A stretch of DNA of 64,000 bases, from positions 1-64,000 of the forward strand of contig NZ_LR656164.1 of assembly GCF_902168435.1 (NCBI RefSeq), in the 5' to 3' direction. This DNA is from Bacillus marasmi. GTDB lineage: Bacteria > Bacillota > Bacilli > Bacillales > Cytobacillaceae. The notes beneath the pieces are model-generated. The model was not told the DNA's origin and did not search any database. It was given only the letters and a program-made list of their open reading frames with translations. Below, one piece after another: positions 1,232 through 62,002 of the stretch. The position numbers and the translations under genes are program-made. Within the stretch, counting starts at the first letter, position 1. The number at the start of each line of letters is the position of its first letter.

Positions 1232-1711
1232 TTATATAGATTCCCTCGAAGCATTCGGAGAGTGATAGCCGATTGAGACTGCATGGTATTTTTGAAAGAT
1301 TGAAGCAGTTTTTTGGAATTGCTCTTTATTAATGCATTTTATGATAATCAAAAAATCAATATAGTTTTTATACCTTTCATTTCCTCGTTTTTTTCTCCTA
1401 AATGATTTATCAATGACAAATCCCAAAGATGCACCAAGAAAAAAACCAAATAGACCAGTAGCGATTGGACCGATTATGAGATTAGCACCCCAAATAATTC
1501 CAAAAAGTGCCCCGACAACAGACCAAACAGCCATTCCATCGAGGATGCTAAATCCATCTGAATACATGATGGTATCCAATACCTGTGCATTACGTTCATT
1601 ATTTTTCATTTCGATCGTGACAATTCTCTCTTCATTAATACCAGAATCTTTAATTTCTTGAATTGCCATTTCCAAAAATTTGGAGCTTTGATATCCAGCG
1701 ATAATATGCAT
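1232..1711 (-). CDS. glycine-zipper membrane protein, unknown function
   Basis: A 159-residue protein. Residues 1-50 look like a small soluble alpha/beta domain. Residues about 60-100 form one long hydrophobic Gly-rich hairpin (repeated GxxxG spacing), followed by a basic patch RRKKR and a second soluble part. This soluble-membrane-soluble layout resembles small stress-related Bacillus proteins with glycine zippers, but I cannot name the family. ATG 1711 has AAAGG about eight bases upstream. It diverges from the 1795 gene, and the short space between them holds a perfect 20-bp palindrome, so the two may share regulation. Confidence 0.6.
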   Translation of the reverse strand: MHIIAGYQSSKFLEMAIQEIKDSGINEERIVTIEMKNNERNAQVLDTIMYSDGFSILDGMAVWSVVGALFGIIWGANLIIGPIATGLFGFFLGASLGFVIDKSFRRKKRGNERYKNYIDFLIIIKCINKEQFQKTASIFQKYHAVSIGYHSPNASRESI

Positions 1712-1748
1712 GATTTAGCCTTTCAGAAAGATTATTGGTAAGTACATT

Positions 1749-1768
1749 ATTTCCAATTAATTGGAAAT
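1749..1768. promoter_or_regulatory. perfect 20-bp palindrome, candidate operator
   Basis: TTTCCAATTAATTGGAAA plus one flanking base on each side forms a perfect dyad in the 83-base divergent gap between the 1711 and 1795 starts. The left half recurs at 1198-1210, upstream of the 699-1178 gene, with a degenerate right half. That points to a dimeric regulator acting on this small cluster; which one is unknown. Confidence 0.45.
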
Positions 1769-1794
1769 TATAATACTAAAAAGGAGTAGTATCA

Positions 1795-2574
1795 TTGAAT
1801 AAACCGCTGAAGGTCCAAATAACGAAACCGAGATTTTCAAAAATGTATATGGGTATATGGGGTGTTAATCACTTATACAGAAATAACCCTTTGGTTGCAG
1901 CTTGGTGGTCTGCTGCGTTACCTGGATTTGGACATATGTCGATGGGGATGTATTTAAAAGGGGCCATATTTTTAACCGGAGAAATCCTAATGAATTTTTT
2001 TGGGAAAATTAATCTTGCACTATTTTATACATTTAATTTGCAATGGGACAAAGTTCATGAAGTTATCAACTATGATTATGCTTTAGTATATGCATCGATT
2101 TGGGTATATTCGATTTGGGACAGCTATCGGCTAGCGGTGGAAGTAAACAAACTTGAGTGGCTGGAATCAAAACAAAACGTCCGTCATTTTGAACATGATG
2201 TAATTCGATCCATAGATATGAACTTCCTTGATAAAAGGAATCCGTGGGTGGGCTTAGCTTGGTCATGCGCATTTACAGGTTTGGGGCACGTATATTGCCA
2301 TAAGCTTTTGTTTGGTTTCATCTTAACAAGTTGGGCTTTTATCATTTCACTAAATACGCATTTACCCACAATAATTATCTATACGTTTATTGGTCAGGTT
2401 GAAAATATTCCACAATTAGTTAATTATCAATGGCTATTATTTTTTCCATCTGTCTATTTATTTGGTGTTTATCATGGATACAACTCTGTTATCGTTCATA
2501 ATCAAGTTTTTAAAGAGGAACAAGCATATTTCCTTCGGGTGAACTTTGGAAGTAATAAATTGGATATCATCTAA
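1795..2574 (+). CDS. polytopic membrane protein with duplicated domain
   Basis: A 259-residue protein starting at TTG 1795, eight bases after AAGGAG. It contains two copies of one roughly 90-residue hydrophobic domain. In copy 1 (about residues 34-120) the order is ALPGFGH, KGAIF, Y-x-F-N-x-Q, NY and WDSYRLA. Copy 2 (about 148-240) repeats it as FTGLGH, FIGQVE, NYQW and GYNS. A single-domain relative lies at 35245-35721 in this window (ALPGFSQ, KGLFF, FLGQFD, NYQW, WDAYRLA). There is a resemblance to TM2-like membrane proteins, but no function is known to me. The upstream palindrome suggests local control. Confidence 0.65.
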   Translation: MNKPLKVQITKPRFSKMYMGIWGVNHLYRNNPLVAAWWSAALPGFGHMSMGMYLKGAIFLTGEILMNFFGKINLALFYTFNLQWDKVHEVINYDYALVYASIWVYSIWDSYRLAVEVNKLEWLESKQNVRHFEHDVIRSIDMNFLDKRNPWVGLAWSCAFTGLGHVYCHKLLFGFILTSWAFIISLNTHLPTIIIYTFIGQVENIPQLVNYQWLLFFPSVYLFGVYHGYNSVIVHNQVFKEEQAYFLRVNFGSNKLDII

Positions 2575-2593
2575 AAACGATAAATTATTTCAT

Positions 2594-2628
2594 TAAAAAG
2601 CTGCCCATATCATTTGATTTGGGCAGCT
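2594..2628 (-). terminator. intrinsic terminator for the ZIP transporter gene
   Basis: The stem AGCTGCCCA/TGGGCAGCT (2599-2628) has a 12-base loop. Read on the minus strand it is followed by five T residues. It may also stop the convergent 1795-2574 transcript. Confidence 0.75.
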
Positions 2629-2654
2629 AAGCTTCACCATAAAAATCTCATCAA

Positions 2655-3467
2655 TTAAATGAATAGTAATAAGCTTAAAGCCATGACGGCCATGCCGCCG
2701 ACCAAGCCGTAGATGGAAGTGTGGGCTTCATCGTATTTCTTGGCAGCTGGTAATAACTCATCTAGGGAGATGAACACCATAATCCCTGCAACACCGGCAA
2801 AAATAATACCGAACAAAGTGTCAGTTAAGAATGGCATCAACACCAAATATGCTAGTAAGGCACCAATCGGTTCTGATAAGCCTGACAAGAATGACAACTT
2901 AAATGCTTTTTTCTTACTTTTCGTTGCAAAATAAACCGGAACAGATACGGCAATTCCCTCTGGAATATTGTGGATGGCGATTGCAAACGCAATCGCTATT
3001 CCGAGGCCTGGATCTTGAATTGCTGACGCAAAAGTGGCGATGCCTTCCGGAAAATTGTGAATGCCAATGGCTAGCGCTGTAAAGGTTCCCATTTTCAAAA
3101 GGTCTGGACTACTAGCGTTATTTCCATTTAATGGTGCATTCATTTCCTCTATCTTTTTCACCTCATGCGGATTTCCTTGTTTTGGGATGAATTTATCGAT
3201 TAATGCAATCAGAAGCATTCCCCCAAAAAAGCTAATCACTGTTACCCAATTTCCGGGTACTTCCCCTAAATCGGCTACAAGTGCTACCTTTGCCTTGAAG
3301 AAAATTTCAATCATTGATACGTAAATCATCACTCCAGCAGAAAACCCTAGTGCCAAAGATAGGAATTTTGTATTGGTATGGGATGTGAAAAAAGCTAAAA
3401 CACTTCCAATGCCAGTGGCTAGACCTGCTAAAAGGGTTAACCATAATGCAAATAAGACATTATCCAC
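2655..3467 (-). CDS. zupT: ZIP-family divalent metal transporter (ZupT-like)
   Basis: A 270-residue polytopic membrane protein of the ZIP family, which carries Zn2+, Mn2+ or Fe2+ into the cytoplasm. It has the two signature metal-site helices HNFPEGIA and HNIPEGIA and about eight membrane segments. The frame stays open for 34 more codons, but GTG 3467 has GAGGGG six bases upstream and yields the usual ZupT length, so that start is preferred. The upstream region carries a sequence resembling a Bacillus MntR box, so manganese may be the physiological substrate; that is inference. A second ZIP gene lies at 56892-57623. Confidence 0.88.
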   Translation of the reverse strand: MDNVLFALWLTLLAGLATGIGSVLAFFTSHTNTKFLSLALGFSAGVMIYVSMIEIFFKAKVALVADLGEVPGNWVTVISFFGGMLLIALIDKFIPKQGNPHEVKKIEEMNAPLNGNNASSPDLLKMGTFTALAIGIHNFPEGIATFASAIQDPGLGIAIAFAIAIHNIPEGIAVSVPVYFATKSKKKAFKLSFLSGLSEPIGALLAYLVLMPFLTDTLFGIIFAGVAGIMVFISLDELLPAAKKYDEAHTSIYGLVGGMAVMALSLLLFI

Positions 3468-3605
3468 CTTTTTCCCCTCACATTCATGAATTAATTCTAA
3501 ATGGTATTCCATTTTTTTAAGCCAATTTGGTATTTGTATAACATATGCATGAGCTAACAAATGTTGCACGTGTTCAACATTTTAATTTCGCGCCAACAGT
3601 TTAAA

Positions 3606-23803: not shown

Positions 23804-24288
23804 CGGATTGCCTCCATTTCTCTAGTAAAATAATAATTTGAGTTAATCTAGGAAAATAGAATGTAATCATGATGTGCCTCTACTTCTATTTTACTCTCAA
23901 ATTCTACAAATGTGGCAATAATTTCTAAACATTCTTTGCCTAGTTTTTCCCATTATGATAAACACTACGAAACACTTATAAACAATGCGTAATAATGAAC
24001 ATTCCGGATAATAAAAAAGAATAATATCAAGAGCTTTTTTGAAAATCACCAAGAAAATAAATTAAATTTTACAAATTTGTTAATATTTGAAAAAACTAGA
24101 AATATATAACAATTAGCAAATAATTAAGTGTATAATGATATTCGGACATAGTTAGTGATGTTTATCACTATTATATCGAATCATTCTATTTTAAAATGAA
24201 CATTTGATGGCGAAATTGGTAACAATTACCTCGGTTGATAAGTAAGCGTTTCCAAAATGCTGTTTATTTCCATGGTAAGGAGGCAATT
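23804..24288. other. divergent intergenic region upstream of the response regulator
   Basis: Strongly AT-rich, 485 bases. The only structured element I can support is the palindrome at 24154-24169. A TATAAT at 24131-24136 sits just before it, without a clear -35. A short open frame before the response regulator (24235-24288) is not needed, since AAGGAGG precedes ATG 24289. Confidence 0.4.
24154..24169. promoter_or_regulatory. FNR/CRP/Rex-type palindrome upstream of response regulator
   Basis: AGTGATGTTTATCACT has exact 6-bp arms (7 with flanking T/A). It fits GTGA-N6-TCAC, the half-site pattern of FNR/CRP and, more loosely, Rex. Two more copies of the same AGTGAT-N4-ATCACT pattern lie at 32445 and 61987. 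Confidence 0.55.
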
Positions 24289-24906
24289 ATGGAAGACCCA
24301 ATTAATGTTGTGATAATTGATAATCATCCCTTTACGACGGAGGCCATTTCACATTTTTTCAAAAATGAAGAGATGGGGATTAAGGTGGTCGGTACGGTTA
24401 CAGATGGGAGGAAAGCGATCGATTTGATTAATGAGACAAGGCCGGATGTCATTGTAATGGAACCATACTTAACGAATATCAATGGAATAGATTTAGCTGA
24501 GGAGATAAGTGATAAGTATAAAGACAAAATAAAAATAGTCATATTTGCTAGCTATGCATGTGAGGAACTTACAAGAATCTTATATAAAATAGGCGTTCAC
24601 GCTGTTGTTCTTAAGGAAGAGCCGTTTAAAATGCTGATTAATGCAGTCAAGCAAAGCTATTTAGGTAATATATTGCTGTCTAATCGGAAAATATTTAAGC
24701 AAAATCATCATCAATTATCGATGACTGAAATAGAAATTCTCCAATTAATTTCTCAAGAGAAAAAGAACCATGAAATTGCCAAGCAATTAAATATGAGTAA
24801 ACGAACGGTTGAATACCATATAACCTCTATTTTTCAAAAGCTAGACGTGGATTCTAGGGTAGGTGCGATTATGAAGGGAGCACAAAAGGGCTTAATTTAC
24901 GTTTAA
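24289..24906 (+). CDS. ComA-like orphan response regulator (Glu at the phosphoacceptor position)
   Basis: A 205-residue REC-LuxR protein. The helix-turn-helix (SKRTVEYHITSIFQKLDVDSR, residues about 167-187) is strikingly similar to Bacillus subtilis ComA. In the receiver domain the expected phosphoacceptor Asp is Glu58 (VIVMEPYL) and the acidic pair is reduced to Asp11-Asn12. The switch Ser and the Lys of VVLKEEP are present. It therefore probably acts without ordinary phosphorylation, Glu perhaps mimicking the active state. ATG 24289 follows AAGGAGG. No histidine kinase or ComX/ComQ gene is nearby. A ComA-box-like site lies 45 bases after its stop, before two small peptide genes. Confidence 0.88.
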   Translation: MEDPINVVIIDNHPFTTEAISHFFKNEEMGIKVVGTVTDGRKAIDLINETRPDVIVMEPYLTNINGIDLAEEISDKYKDKIKIVIFASYACEELTRILYKIGVHAVVLKEEPFKMLINAVKQSYLGNILLSNRKIFKQNHHQLSMTEIEILQLISQEKKNHEIAKQLNMSKRTVEYHITSIFQKLDVDSRVGAIMKGAQKGLIYV

Positions 24907-24941
24907 GTCTGTTTGCAAAGCTAGATACAAAGATTTTTTTT

Positions 24942-24993
24942 TTGCGTTTATTGCGGAATCACGCAAAAAGAATACGAAAATTACCTCTATAAT
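24942..24993 (+). promoter_or_regulatory. ComA-box-like site and -10 element for the peptide genes
   Basis: TTGCGGAATCACGCAA at 24951-24966 matches the ComA dyad TTGCGG-N4-CCGCAA at 11 of 12 arm positions. A further half site, TTGCGT, lies at 24942-24947, giving three recognition elements as known for ComA targets. TATAAT at 24988-24993 follows at activator spacing, and the -35 region (AAAAAG) is poor, as expected for an activated promoter. The predicted transcript would begin near 25000. Confidence 0.65.
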
Positions 24994-25117
24994 TGTCGGA
25001 AAATACGATGTTTTGAAAAAATGATTAGGAATATGATGTATATAACAAATCGAAATGGTTTTAGGAAGAGTAAAATCAACCAGATTCATTTGTAATATGA
25101 GCTCGGAGGTGAAACAA

Positions 25118-25207
25118 ATGTTAGCATTAGGACTATCTTTAGCAGCAGTTCTTGATTTAACTCCAGTTGTAGGTCTTGTGGGTGCACTTTTAGGCGCATT
25201 ACTATAG
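25118..25207 (+). CDS. 29-residue hydrophobic peptide, copy 1
   Basis: Starts at ATG after a strong CGGAGGTGAAACAA. The peptide begins MLALGLSLAA and contains the core DLTPVVGLVGALLG. Its only charged residue is Asp13 (no Lys or Arg), it has one Pro16, and it is otherwise almost purely Leu, Ala, Val and Gly, long enough to span a membrane. It differs from copy 2 only at positions 11 (Val) and 27 (Ala). The high conservation, the duplicated SD sites and the ComA-like promoter indicate a real gene. It could be a secreted signal, toxin, surfactant-like peptide or membrane microprotein; no function is recognised. Confidence 0.75.
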   Translation: MLALGLSLAAVLDLTPVVGLVGALLGALL

Positions 25208-25238
25208 TTCTTTCTAAATAAAGATGGAGGTGAAATGA

Positions 25239-25328
25239 ATGTTAGCATTAGGATTATCTTTAGCAGCACTTCTTGATTTAACTCCAGTTGTAGGTCTTGT
25301 TGGCGCACTTCTAGGCGGATTACTATAA
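25239..25328 (+). CDS. 29-residue hydrophobic peptide, copy 2
   Basis: Tandem duplicate of the preceding gene, offset by 121 bases, with its own strong site ATGGAGGTGAAATGA. It has the same length and the same Asp13/Pro16, with Leu11 and Gly27 instead of Val and Ala. Most nucleotide differences between the copies are synonymous third-position changes (for example CTA/TTA, GTG/GTT, GGT/GGC), which argues for selection on the peptide rather than on RNA. A strong terminator follows at 25354. No processing protease or exporter gene is adjacent. Confidence 0.75.
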   Translation: MLALGLSLAALLDLTPVVGLVGALLGGLL

Positions 25329-25353
25329 TCCATACATAATAAGTTTTTTAATG

Positions 25354-25387
25354 AGTCTTTCAGTCATCATACTGAAAGGCTTTTTTT
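25354..25387 (+). terminator. terminator after the tandem peptide genes
   Basis: AGTCTTTCAGT pairs with ACTGAAAGGCT around a six-base loop, followed by seven T residues. It isolates the peptide operon from the potassium transporter gene. Confidence 0.9.
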
Positions 25388-25477
25388 CATTACTGCACAT
25401 CAAACAAAATGTGGAAACAGATACCTTATTAAAATGAAATTTGGTATACTATGCCTATCATACATGAAGGTCGTGAA

Positions 25478-27052: not shown

Positions 27053-27919
27053 ATGATGCTTAAGGCTATCCAACAAGTGTTTTTTATTTTTATCTTAATA
27101 TTATTCTTAGCAGCACTTCCGACTATTGTTGGTATTAATCCAGCTGAAAAAAGTTTACATTGGAATTGGAGTTCACTACCAACTGCATATGGTGATTTTA
27201 TTGAGGAAATAAGTAGTGGAAGCCTTGGTACATATCAGGTTGGATCACAACAAAGGCAAATTGCTGAAGATATTGGTGGTCATTTTACAACAAGCTTGCT
27301 GATTATCCTATCGGGTGTCAATCTAGGCGTCTTTATAAGTCTAGTGCTTGGGATATTTTTAAGCAGGTTTAAACTGATTCGCCTTTTCAATACTCTGTTA
27401 AATGGACTAGCAGCAATACCCGATTTTATTATCATCATATTATCGCTCATATTAGCTGTTAAGGTTTATAAAATTACTGGTATACGAATTATTTCGTTAC
27501 GATCAGACGGGGGAGCATTAAATTTATGGTTCCCGATTGTGCTTGTGGCGATTGCCCCTACATTATATTTATATAAATTAATTGCCGTGAAGTATTATCA
27601 AATCAGTGGTGAGGACTATGTGCGAACAGCAGTGGCGAAGGGAATGCGAATAAATTATATTAATTTTCAACACGTGTACAAAAATATTGAGCCATTTATT
27701 CTAGCTGAGCTGACAAAAGTGATCTCATTAGCGATAGGAAATTTATTTATCATTGAATATTTATTAAATGTTTCAGGAATTACAAAATTTATTTTTCTTA
27801 GTAAAGAGCTTCAGCCTATTGCAATTGGTTTGTTTGCGATGTTGATTATTTCCTTTGTTGTTTACTTATCAGTTAGGATTGGTCTTTATTTGTTTAAACG
27901 AGGGTTTATTTATGAATAA
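27053..27919 (+). CDS. ABC transporter permease, DppB/OppB-like
   Basis: A 288-residue binding-protein-dependent permease with an N-terminal helix, an extracellular region (about residues 30-85) and five further membrane segments. The coupling-helix (EAA-type) loop reads EDYVRTAVAKGMRINYINFQHVYKN near residue 183. ATG 27053 follows GGGGGAAG. It overlaps the next gene by 8 bases, so the two permeases are translationally coupled. There is no ATPase or substrate-binding protein gene beside it, unlike standard dipeptide transport operons. Confidence 0.85.
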   Translation: MMLKAIQQVFFIFILILFLAALPTIVGINPAEKSLHWNWSSLPTAYGDFIEEISSGSLGTYQVGSQQRQIAEDIGGHFTTSLLIILSGVNLGVFISLVLGIFLSRFKLIRLFNTLLNGLAAIPDFIIIILSLILAVKVYKITGIRIISLRSDGGALNLWFPIVLVAIAPTLYLYKLIAVKYYQISGEDYVRTAVAKGMRINYINFQHVYKNIEPFILAELTKVISLAIGNLFIIEYLLNVSGITKFIFLSKELQPIAIGLFAMLIISFVVYLSVRIGLYLFKRGFIYE

Positions 27920-30344
27920 GCTGTGGCGGATAAATTATTCTTTTTATGTTGGAATTATTCTCGTGACCCTACTAGTTGTCCTATCAATACTCGGACCTAC
28001 ACTCGCACCGTATACATTAACTGAAATTCTCGAAACGCATTATTCAGATGGACAGGTTATAGCTCCACCGTTAGAGCCGTTTGAGTCGAAGGAATATCCA
28101 TTTGGGACTGATAAATGGGGTTATGACCTATTGACGATGATTCTTTTTGGTATTCGTCATACTATCTTTATTTCGTTAGTGATTACCATTATTAAAATGT
28201 CGATGGGGACCGTGATAGGGATTTATATTGGTACTTGGAAAAAGACACCTGGATGGCTTGAGTCGATTGAAAACTCATGGAGTTATGTTCCATTATTTTT
28301 GGTGTTGTATTTCTTTTTAAAACCAATAAATTTTGGTAATCAAATTCATCCATCCATTTTGATTGGTTATTTCATCTTAATTACCTCAATGATCAGCATA
28401 CCAAGTATTGTTTCTTCTGTGAGGAAAAAAACGCGTGAAATTGAAAAGTCAGTGTTTATAGAGGCTGCCCGCGTCTTAGGGGCAAATCGACATCGAATCA
28501 TTTGGAAACACATCTTTCCGCAAATGAAAGAATCACTACTAGTAATGTTTGTTTTAGAAATTGTTTATGTCATTACGATTATGGGGCAATTAGCCTTGAT
28601 GAATATCTTCATTGGTGGAACAATCGTCAGATACGACCCACTCATATACTTATCAGTTACGAAAGAAATATCTGGATTGGTCGGACAGGCCCGTGGAAAC
28701 CTCTTTGGTACACCACATATTTTAATTGTTCCGCTGATTGTGCTATTAATCATCACCGTATCGTTTAGCCTTCTCGCTAATGGATTAAAGAATCGCTATC
28801 AGGCTAATTATCAGCGGACCTCATGGATTAAAACAGGCTTTGAGCCAAGATTTGTTCCGGTAAGGGTACAATATAGCAGCAAGAAACGTCTAAGGCTTAC
28901 TGGTGAAAAACTGTTAGTTTCCCTGTTTGTTTTGTCAGTATTGGGTGCAAGTAGTTATCTTTATACCACTTTTGCGGCTGAAGAAGGAATAAGAACTGTC
29001 AGTAAAGCAAAAGGAGTTGAAAATGGAAGTTTTGCGAAATATCAGCTTCAACTGAAAATGTTAAACTCCGGGACGTTTTCGTCAACTGCAAATATTACTG
29101 TGAAAAATAAATCAAATAAAGAGTGGAATGAACTCGTCTTTTATTTCATTCCAAATGCTTTATCGAAGGCGAAGTCGTTTGAGTCAGTAGCAGACTATAC
29201 AGAAATTAAGATGAAGAGCATTACGATTGATGGTGAAGAAGTTAACTATTCACTGGAAAATGATTTGTTAAAAATCATGCTGGAAAAGAAGTTGGATAAG
29301 GGTGTTGATGTTAACGTAAAGATTACGTACACTTTTACGGTCTCTAAGGAAGGTAACGGCTTTTTTACTGCGTCAGGTTCATATTATCTTGGTCAATGGT
29401 ACCCAATGCTTGCTACCTTCCAAGATGGTCGCTGGAATAAAGCAGATTATAAGGAAGGATTTAAAAGCTATCACACTGATTTTTCCGACTTTACCGTTCA
29501 ATACAATCTGCCAAGCGGATATCAGCTTGTTTCTTCAGCAGATAAGGACGCAGAAATAAAAAGCAATGAGGGAACGGTAGAGATTAGCCGTGTTCGTGAA
29601 TTTTATCTCGCTATTTTAAAGCCAAACATGAAAGTGTATAAAACAACCAGTAACGGCGTAGAGATTCGTTTATTTTCAAGACAAGACCATGATGAGAACC
29701 CTGAGAATGCAATAATCATAGCAAAAGAGGCATTAAACTTTTTTCAAGAAAGAATTGGAAAATATCCACATCGACAGCTCGATATTTTATTGGCCGAGGG
29801 CTATTCCCATGAGTATCCCGGTGTTGTAATGGTGGATCCGTATCATGATAGTGACGGGTCATTTAAGAATACGTTAATCCACGAGATTGCCCACCAGTAT
29901 TTTTACGGTGTTGTTGCCAATGATTCTTATCAGGAAGCTTGGCTCGATGAAGGCTTTAGTGAGTTTGCGACTAATCTTTATTATTATATACACGAAGGAC
30001 AAGGAAAGTACCAAGCAATGGGCGTGTCTTATAATCGTATGAGTGCGATTCAAAATGCTGGTTTAGGAAGACAATATTCCAATGTGCCATTACCGGAAAA
30101 CCAGCATCCGGGCTATATTTTAGGACAACCAGCAGTTCAGCTTTTCAATATGATTGAGGAAAAATATCGATATAGAGAGAAGGATTTTTCAATTGTCTTA
30201 ACTGAGTATTTAGCTGATTATTACCAACATTTCCAGTATCAACAAGTGGACACATCGGCATTTATTCGATTTACGAAGGATTATTTTCATGTTCCAACTG
30301 GGTATTTTAATGAATGGCTTGATACGACTAAAATAAAAGAGTAA
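27912..30344 (+). CDS. ABC permease (DppC-like) fused to M1-type metallopeptidase
   Basis: An 810-residue fusion. Residues 1 to about 300 are a DppC/OppC-like permease with an EAA loop (IEAARVLGANRHRIIWKHIFP). A further membrane helix lies at about 333-354 (LLVSLFVLSVLGASSYLYTTF). Residues about 360-810 form a gluzincin domain of the M1 aminopeptidase type with zinc site HEIAHQ at 657-661 and Glu680 in WLDEGFSEF, that is HEXXH-X18-E. The exopeptidase GAMEN motif is replaced by HEYPGVVMV. The topology places the peptidase outside the cell. ATG 27912 lies after GAGGG and overlaps the upstream permease. A terminator follows. Confidence 0.88.
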   Translation: MNKLWRINYSFYVGIILVTLLVVLSILGPTLAPYTLTEILETHYSDGQVIAPPLEPFESKEYPFGTDKWGYDLLTMILFGIRHTIFISLVITIIKMSMGTVIGIYIGTWKKTPGWLESIENSWSYVPLFLVLYFFLKPINFGNQIHPSILIGYFILITSMISIPSIVSSVRKKTREIEKSVFIEAARVLGANRHRIIWKHIFPQMKESLLVMFVLEIVYVITIMGQLALMNIFIGGTIVRYDPLIYLSVTKEISGLVGQARGNLFGTPHILIVPLIVLLIITVSFSLLANGLKNRYQANYQRTSWIKTGFEPRFVPVRVQYSSKKRLRLTGEKLLVSLFVLSVLGASSYLYTTFAAEEGIRTVSKAKGVENGSFAKYQLQLKMLNSGTFSSTANITVKNKSNKEWNELVFYFIPNALSKAKSFESVADYTEIKMKSITIDGEEVNYSLENDLLKIMLEKKLDKGVDVNVKITYTFTVSKEGNGFFTASGSYYLGQWYPMLATFQDGRWNKADYKEGFKSYHTDFSDFTVQYNLPSGYQLVSSADKDAEIKSNEGTVEISRVREFYLAILKPNMKVYKTTSNGVEIRLFSRQDHDENPENAIIIAKEALNFFQERIGKYPHRQLDILLAEGYSHEYPGVVMVDPYHDSDGSFKNTLIHEIAHQYFYGVVANDSYQEAWLDEGFSEFATNLYYYIHEGQGKYQAMGVSYNRMSAIQNAGLGRQYSNVPLPENQHPGYILGQPAVQLFNMIEEKYRYREKDFSIVLTEYLADYYQHFQYQQVDTSAFIRFTKDYFHVPTGYFNEWLDTTKIKE

Positions 30345-32444: not shown

Positions 32445-32460
32445 AGTGATAATCATCACT
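32445..32460. promoter_or_regulatory. FNR/CRP/Rex-type palindrome upstream of Fe-S factor
   Basis: AGTGATAATCATCACT has 6-bp arms (7 with flanking T/A), identical base for base to the site at 61987-62002 before the hemerythrin gene. It sits 78 bases before ATG 32538. Confidence 0.6.
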
Positions 32461-61986: not shown

Positions 61987-62002
61987 AGTGATAATCATCA
62001 CT
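61987..62002. promoter_or_regulatory. FNR/CRP/Rex-type palindrome before hemerythrin gene
   Basis: AGTGATAATCATCACT, identical to the site at 32445-32460 before the Fe-S assembly factor. It sits 60 bases before ATG 62062. Confidence 0.6.

Follow-up and report, generated by a model that had tools for sequence, protein, structure and literature searches.

An orphan ComA-family regulator beside genes for short hydrophobic peptides: a probable two-part module in Bacillus marasmi and related bacteria

What a regulator of the ComA family does when it stands beside two tiny genes for hydrophobic peptides, with no sensor kinase adjoining, is the question raised by a locus of Bacillus marasmi (RefSeq assembly GCF_902168435.1, contig NZ_LR656164.1, positions 1 to 64,000 of the forward strand; the window below means this whole 64,000-nucleotide stretch). 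A first-pass annotation made from the letters alone had described a regulator gene followed by a ComA-like box, two peptide genes, each with a strong Shine-Dalgarno (SD) site, and a shared terminator, and our analysis confirmed each of these elements (Table 1). The locus is best read as a descendant of ComA-type signalling in which control has passed from phosphorylation to the expression of the regulator or to its partners. We consider it probable, with moderate confidence, that it constitutes a self-contained two-part module, in which an orphan ComA-family regulator has its own output of short hydrophobic helical peptides and is controlled through its amount or its partner proteins.

The unit recurs outside the window. 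Two of the five genomes in our genus set carry the peptides, and the same two carry a close regulator, that of the second genome, Bacillus sp. DNRA2 (contig NZ_JABAIT010000016.1; DNRA2 below), being 84% identical; its two peptides have 33 residues each. The regulator coding sequences agree at 490/618 positions and the peptide genes at 68/90 and 80/90. Among 193 genomes of the family, a credible peptide match was found in 2 (the window genome and DNRA2) and a regulator match at E values up to 1e-24 in 7, with identity above 40% solely in the same two (a match of 40% identity in genome G025 has two internal stops). Among 397 genomes of the order, 20 gave a regulator match at E values up to 1e-26, the closest of which, at 48-56% identity, all belong to one other family (G286, G364, G208 and, as a fragment, G252); this family contributes seven genomes to the set, four with the regulator. 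In G364, a regulator of 53% identity is followed by the dyad CTGCGTGATTCCGCAA and then by one 37-residue peptide, MINLGLALGLSVDVLSGLGNLLGGVVGVVGGLLGGLL, with a strong SD site and a TTG start. Unlike the Bacillus unit, which is followed by a TrkH-family gene in both the window (start at 25451) and DNRA2, the G364 unit has flavodoxin and ECF-transporter genes as neighbours. Judged from sequence, this is a conserved regulator-promoter-peptide module, seen in three species, and both the box between regulator and peptides and the conservation of the peptides in homologues hold in all three; the first refuting outcome named in the first-pass annotation, peptides not conserved among homologues, thus did not occur. 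The peptide was present in three of the four loci with an intact regulator of this clade at which its presence could be judged; in G286 it cannot be judged, the contig ending 121 bases past the regulator stop.

The peptide searches were insensitive and absence elsewhere is therefore weakly shown, since a model built from the four Bacillus peptides missed the G364 peptide, even though the 397 order genomes included G364. At E values up to 0.5 this model gave matches in 16/193 family and 24/397 order genomes (best beyond the window genome and DNRA2, 0.031), and a plain peptide protein search of the 193 family genomes gave matches in 4 at E values up to 0.1 (best beyond the same two, 0.019); the extra matches, partial and mostly inside long open frames, were taken as chance. 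Plasmids gave no match by blastn of the locus or tblastn of the peptide, and none of the 76 pattern matches in a single-regulator scan of the genome contigs was confirmed. The DUF3939 gene that precedes the regulator gene in the window has other neighbours in G001 and G003, where open reading frame (ORF) translations inspected by eye showed no regulator, peptides or TrkH gene beside it.

ComA promoters are described, in the portion of PMC4797271 consulted, as an inverted repeat TTGCGG-4nt-CCGCAA followed by a degenerate direct repeat TTGCGG-5nt-TTGCGG, mostly before the -35. The order of elements in the window fits this description, with an inverted repeat upstream of the core promoter and a second element ahead of a core promoter without a clear -35. 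The first-pass annotation had reported a dyad matching the ComA site at 11/12 arm bases together with a third half-site, and both are present. The dyad is the sole match with at most one mismatch in the window (0.05 expected; 5/100 shuffles had one), and a three-half-site pattern, drawn up after the sequence had been seen, was also unique there (0.08 expected at up to two mismatches; 7/100 shuffles had one). Along the promoter, identity between the window and DNRA2 alternates: 11/29 after the regulator stop, 35/37 in the dyad region (24936-24972), 11/19 in the gap, 25/27 in the second element (24992-25018), 7/11 in the spacer, 40/43 in the -10 and leader (25030-25072) and 19/30 thereafter. The three islands, whose borders we chose after the alignment had been seen, are 93-95% identical, and the stretches between them 38-64%. 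Spacing is kept as well: the distance from the dyad to ATACG is 36, 36, 37 and 37 bases in the window, DNRA2, G364 and G252, and a TATGAT or TATGGT hexamer lies 24 bases after ATACG in each of the four. An exact scan of the genome contigs with the promoter pattern returned one stretch, in DNRA2. A separate pattern, itself derived from these promoters, is no independent test of them. The hexamer that the first-pass annotation had taken as the core promoter, TATAAT at 24988-24993, is indeed present in the gap ahead of the second element yet is not conserved in DNRA2, whereas the later TATGAT is conserved and is therefore probably the core -10. On this arrangement, a regulator dimer would bind the inverted repeat and probably also the direct-repeat-like second element, activating a weak promoter from which a short transcript, ending after the terminator, would make both peptides.

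The regulator (Response_reg, 6.1e-17; GerE, 1.8e-17; best curated NCBIfam matches to NarL-type models, below their cut-offs) shares with ComA of the Bacillus subtilis comQXPA system a receiver joined to a LuxR-type helix-turn-helix. In the portion of PMC3246441 consulted, Arg183, Tyr187 and Thr190 of ComA contact DNA, and Tyr187 is unique among B. subtilis response regulators. Placed by our own mapping of these residue numbers, the recognition helix reads R, Y, T in the window, DNRA2, G286 and G364, and R, Y, S in G208, in keeping with the original description of the protein as ComA-like. The ComA DNA-binding domain finds this regulator as its best match, narrowly, both in the window genome (38.2 vs 36.1 bits) and in DNRA2 (38.1 vs 37.9 bits). 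The five regulators form one clade with support 98/99, in a midpoint-rooted tree whose deeper forks are weak and for which the program warned of long branches.

The receiver tells a different story from that of ComA. In the window and DNRA2 its acid pair is D-N, its phospho-site is Glu and the Thr position is Ala. In an alignment of 23 regulators, which omits L073, L009, L012 and L013 (no regulator was found in these 4 of 26 loci) and the deleted G252 copy, Glu occupies the phospho-site in 2 (window and DNRA2) and Asp in 21, and Asn occurs in the acid pair of 5 (window, DNRA2, G286, G364 and G208), L091 being gapped there. The portion of PMC12632262 consulted defines a pseudo-receiver as a receiver in which one or more of five conserved residues are missing and names Asn, Glu and Ala as common replacements at these positions, all three of which are present here, so that the protein is, on alignment, a pseudo-receiver regulator. 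The same source treats Glu as a phosphomimetic in many response regulators, disproved in some pseudo-receivers, and the portion consulted lists no ComA-type member, though its text was not searched for ComA.

Relatives of the clade commonly retain a kinase. Seventeen aligned relatives share 30-41% identity with the regulator, and all but L101 were inspected. In 12 of the 17 (L019, L093, L096, L098, L100, L102-L105, L094, L095 and a Priestia plasmid), the ORF directly upstream carries a HATPase_c domain; L090, L091, L097 and L099 showed no same-strand upstream kinase ORF by eye. By comparison, no kinase-size ORF lies beside the regulator in the window, DNRA2, G364, G286 or G208 (an unlinked kinase elsewhere was not searched for), and the clade therefore appears to have lost its kinase partner. 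Of the four comQXPA components, namely pheromone precursor, modifying enzyme, kinase and regulator, the regulator alone is found at the window locus, with no ComP, ComQ or ComX beside it (unlinked comQXP was not searched for). The quorum control suggested in the first-pass annotation is thus not supported for this copy, in which the phosphorylatable Asp is lost and no kinase adjoins, though relatives elsewhere do form kinase-regulator pairs. Because the phospho-site Asp, the second acid and the Thr are replaced and no kinase lies beside the gene, output would most likely be set by the amount of regulator, in whose promoter region a palindrome lies, or by partner proteins, rather than by phosphorylation.

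Two of the kinase-paired loci show features of their own. A perfect ComA dyad, TTGCGGAACTCCGCAA, lies between the kinase-regulator pair and an MMPL-family gene in L095 (2153-2168), where His replaces the Tyr of ComA. L098 has a hydrophobic 39-residue ORF after its kinase-regulator pair (2308-2427 of the locus reverse complement), which we take to resemble the YjcZ type.

Each window peptide has 29 residues, with no Lys, Arg or Cys and with one Asp, one Pro, one Ser and one Thr. The two copies differ by two residues, as originally noted, but by only 4 silent changes rather than the many that had been claimed. Peptide lengths of 29 and 29 (window), 33 and 33 (DNRA2) and 37 (G364) differ by whole codons, and within a genome both copies are equally long, which points to either concerted evolution or duplications that took place separately. 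Across the four Bacillus peptides, 21 of 33 columns are invariant and 29 of 33 are filled in all four; the ratio of replacement to silent substitution rates (dN/dS) is about 0.19 to 0.58 over the six pairs, none of which reaches 1, with 4-11 silent changes per pair and with codons compared in order from the start, any length difference being taken as terminal. The G364 peptide scores 8.2 bits against a model of the other four, above 2000/2000 of its own shuffles, and its global alignment scores beat all 2000 shuffles against each of the four; it shares an initial M, LGL, Asp13 and a GGLLGGLL end with the DNRA2 peptides, and LGL, Asp13 and a Leu/Gly C-terminus are common to the peptides. Constraint at the protein level is thus suggested mainly by the cross-species comparison.

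AlphaFold models residues 2-32 of the DNRA2 33-mer as a single helix (mean predicted local distance difference test score 85). Gly is gathered on one side of the helix in the five peptides (p 0.002 to 0.06 vs shuffles), though these do not count as independent cases. Neither Gly+Ala+Ser nor Leu/Ile/Val/Met clustered beyond shuffles, the G364 peptide excepted. Family searches with the peptides yielded no match in Pfam at E values up to 10, one in NCBIfam (0.49) and three in PHROGs (0.34 to 3.9), none of them significant. The peptides are most likely single membrane-inserted or membrane-active helices with a Gly face and one fixed Asp, and we infer their membrane insertion or activity from composition. 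Leaderless bacteriocins, short hydrophobic signal peptides and one-helix membrane microproteins are known kinds of peptide, and the window peptides resemble them in size, hydrophobicity and predicted helix but differ in having no Lys or Arg, no significant family match and no recognised accessory genes.

It is quite possible, if short of probable, that the peptides act within the producer as membrane microproteins, for example by oligomerising through the Gly face or by modulating the TrkH-family protein encoded next in the window and DNRA2. A helix long enough for a membrane span, with Gly on one side and a fixed Asp, would suit such a role, although Lys or Arg to set the topology is missing and four of the five peptides show no significant clustering of either Gly+Ala+Ser or Leu/Ile/Val/Met. 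The different neighbours of the G364 unit, together with the terminator between peptides and TrkH, make a specific TrkH role unlikely, and a general TrkH link was rejected on account of those neighbours.

A doubtful alternative holds that the peptides are secreted leaderless antimicrobial or surfactant-like agents active on membranes, the counterpart of a lantibiotic encoded on Priestia plasmids. Twelve such plasmids carry a regulator of 40.5-41.5% identity, and in each of the three that were opened (L109, L114 and L115) the regulator is the last gene of a run resembling a comXQPA locus, where it comes after a 57-residue ORF, a gene for an isoprenoid-type enzyme and a kinase gene; beside the run lie two or three identical tandem lantibiotic genes (one protein accession, gallidermin/nisin family). 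By its position the 57-residue ORF would be ComX; it has a Trp-containing tail and matches nothing in Pfam or NCBIfam. The Priestia megaterium locus on pBM700 resembles the window locus in its regulator (about 41% identical), its recognition helix (R, Y, S) and its tandem short-peptide output, and its lantibiotic promoter contains TTGCGGTATATACGG, similar to our second element, 24 bases before TAAATT, a hexamer that we picked as the -10 and that is no consensus -10. Unlike the module, the plasmid locus has a kinase, an isoprenoid-type enzyme, a ComX-like ORF, an intact receiver and a lantibiotic with its dehydratase, and the canonical inverted repeat is absent from its lantibiotic promoter stretch. 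In another relative, L090, the ComA-family regulator gene is followed by a 67-residue ORF, in which EEGG is repeated three times, and by a gene for a RimK-type ATP-grasp protein (1492-3594 of the locus reverse complement), a putative graspetide cluster. The window peptides, by contrast, have no cationic residue, no Cys and no significant family match, and neither a modification enzyme, as expected for lantibiotics and other modified peptides, nor an immunity gene was seen beside them; the permease genes found downstream in the window had no counterpart in the 1.5 kb that was read next to the G364 unit.

We regard it as improbable that the peptides work as a signal, outside or inside the cell, that feeds back on the regulator. 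Regulator and peptide adjoin in three genomes, and short peptides serve as signals in other Firmicutes (PMC10518010, in the portion consulted), but next to the peptides we saw neither a receptor-type domain nor a kinase nor a processing gene, and their low-complexity Leu/Gly/Val C-terminal half would be an unlikely specificity code. That the small ORFs are untranslated, with the promoter or RNA alone mattering, is very improbable: although ORFs of this length arise by chance, silent sites are scarce (4 to 11 silent changes per pair) and the conserved island at 25030-25072 reaches into the leader, the five ORFs have strong SD sites and lengths differing by whole codons, dN/dS is below 1 in all six pairs, and similarity beyond composition extends to the third species.

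Several observations weigh against a two-part module of ComA-type origin. The dyad pattern with at most one mismatch occurs at 2 sites in the 4.6-Mb genome, and its reversed control gives 4; at the scale of the genome the motif by itself therefore does not exceed chance, and it is place and conservation that count; the second genomic site sits between two open frames on another contig. The second element has a CG-to-CG period of 9, vs 11 in the ComA direct repeat. Two genus genomes without the module give stronger ComA-domain matches (53.4 and 45.8 bits). The Glu and Ala of the receiver are confined to two closely related genomes, and the members in the other family still have the Asp, accompanied by Thr or Ser, and might yet undergo phosphorylation. 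In G252 both dyad and second element persist beside an internally deleted regulator, with no peptide found. The expectation that the peptides always follow this regulator held in the window, DNRA2 and G364 but not in G208, where an intact regulator of the clade has no recognisable box or peptide beside it. AlphaFold readily yields a helix for a peptide of this kind, and the predicted template modelling score of the DNRA2 33-mer was 0.38.

If the module exists as we propose, it may show a quorum-sensing regulator midway through losing its sensor. Among the regulators compared, some pair a kinase with an intact receiver, G286, G364 and G208 have Asn in the acid pair while Asp still occupies the phospho-site, and the window and DNRA2 copies carry Glu and Ala; a related promoter accompanies some of them. 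Switching of pseudo-receiver regulators would then be testable in environmental Bacillus with a defined target adjoining, and the peptides would offer a simple Leu/Gly helix for the study of membrane-active microproteins. A tentative extension, which we think rather unlikely, is that ComA-type quorum regulators became kinase-free two-gene switches for a new family of Gly/Leu-rich, charge-poor membrane-active peptides, and that the module spread across neighbourhoods and lineages as one unit. Titles and the starts of abstracts in the literature showed nothing on point for an orphan ComA with hydrophobic peptides, and a census of comQXPA loci (PMC4008528) does not mention megaterium, plasmid, lantibiotic, downstream or neighbor.

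Table 1. Positions of the regulator gene, the peptide genes and their predicted control elements in the window
Feature	Position	Strand	Basis
TATAAT, probable -10 of the regulator gene	24131..24136	+	Sequence by eye; 24128-24145 16/18 identical in DNRA2
Palindrome AGTGAT-GTTT-ATCACT, possible input to the regulator gene	24154..24169	strandless	24150-24178 26/29 identical in DNRA2
Orphan ComA-like response regulator gene, 205 aa	24289..24906	+	Response_reg and GerE; alignment
Third half-site TTGCGT, direct repeat with TTGCGG	24942..24947	+	Kept in DNRA2, absent from other-family promoters
Inverted repeat TTGCGGAATCACGCAA (TTGCGG-AATC-ACGCAA), canonical site of ComA type	24951..24966	strandless	Pattern match and conservation
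Second element TTGTCGGAAAATACGAT, direct-repeat-like, CG period 9	24993..25009	+	Conserved in DNRA2, G364 and G252
Probable -10 hexamer TATGAT	25032..25037	+	24 bases after ATACG in four module promoters
SD site GGAGG of peptide gene 1	25105..25109	+	Sequence
Peptide gene 1, 29 residues, MLALGLSLAAVLDLTPVVGLVGALLGALL	25118..25207	+	ORF, cross-species comparison
SD site GGAGG of peptide gene 2	25226..25230	+	Sequence
Peptide gene 2, 29 residues, MLALGLSLAALLDLTPVVGLVGALLGGLL	25239..25328	+	ORF, cross-species comparison
Intrinsic terminator with T-run, common to both peptide genes	25353..25382	+	Terminator prediction from sequence

Upstream of the regulator gene, a palindrome that we take to be of CRP/FNR-like type may provide an input. 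Perfect copies of AGTGAT-N4-ATCACT occur three times in the window, the other two (32445-32460 and 61987-62002) preceding a FeS_assembly_P gene (start 32538) and a hemerythrin gene (62059), and the three perhaps belong to one redox or nitric-oxide regulon. With up to two mismatches, the pattern occurs 8 times vs 3.4 expected, a number reached in 0/100 shuffles; five of the eight matches are imperfect and one lies inside the regulator gene. The oxygen or redox input put forward in the first-pass annotation is possible, given the conservation in DNRA2 and the recurrence before these two genes, but the 400 bases ahead of the G364, G286, G208 and G252 regulators contain no copy with up to two mismatches, so that only in the Bacillus pair might oxygen or nitric oxide act as an input. 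The TATAAT-N-ATA of the probable regulator promoter is, by eye, also found upstream of the other-family regulators. The regulator leader contains a second conserved stretch (24199-24232), identical in DNRA2 at 29/34 bases, within which lies the palindrome GGTAACAATTACC.

A link to defence was rejected, PADLOC matches reaching at most 27 bits and falling mostly on the common helix-turn-helix. A minus-strand open frame of 138 codons (24892-25308) runs antisense to both peptide genes and was taken as chance. Two oligopeptide-type permease genes lie 1.8 kb downstream in the window and DNRA2, one of which (27912-30344) joins an oligopeptide-type ABC permease and a C-terminal peptidase M1 match in one protein, conserved in DNRA2.

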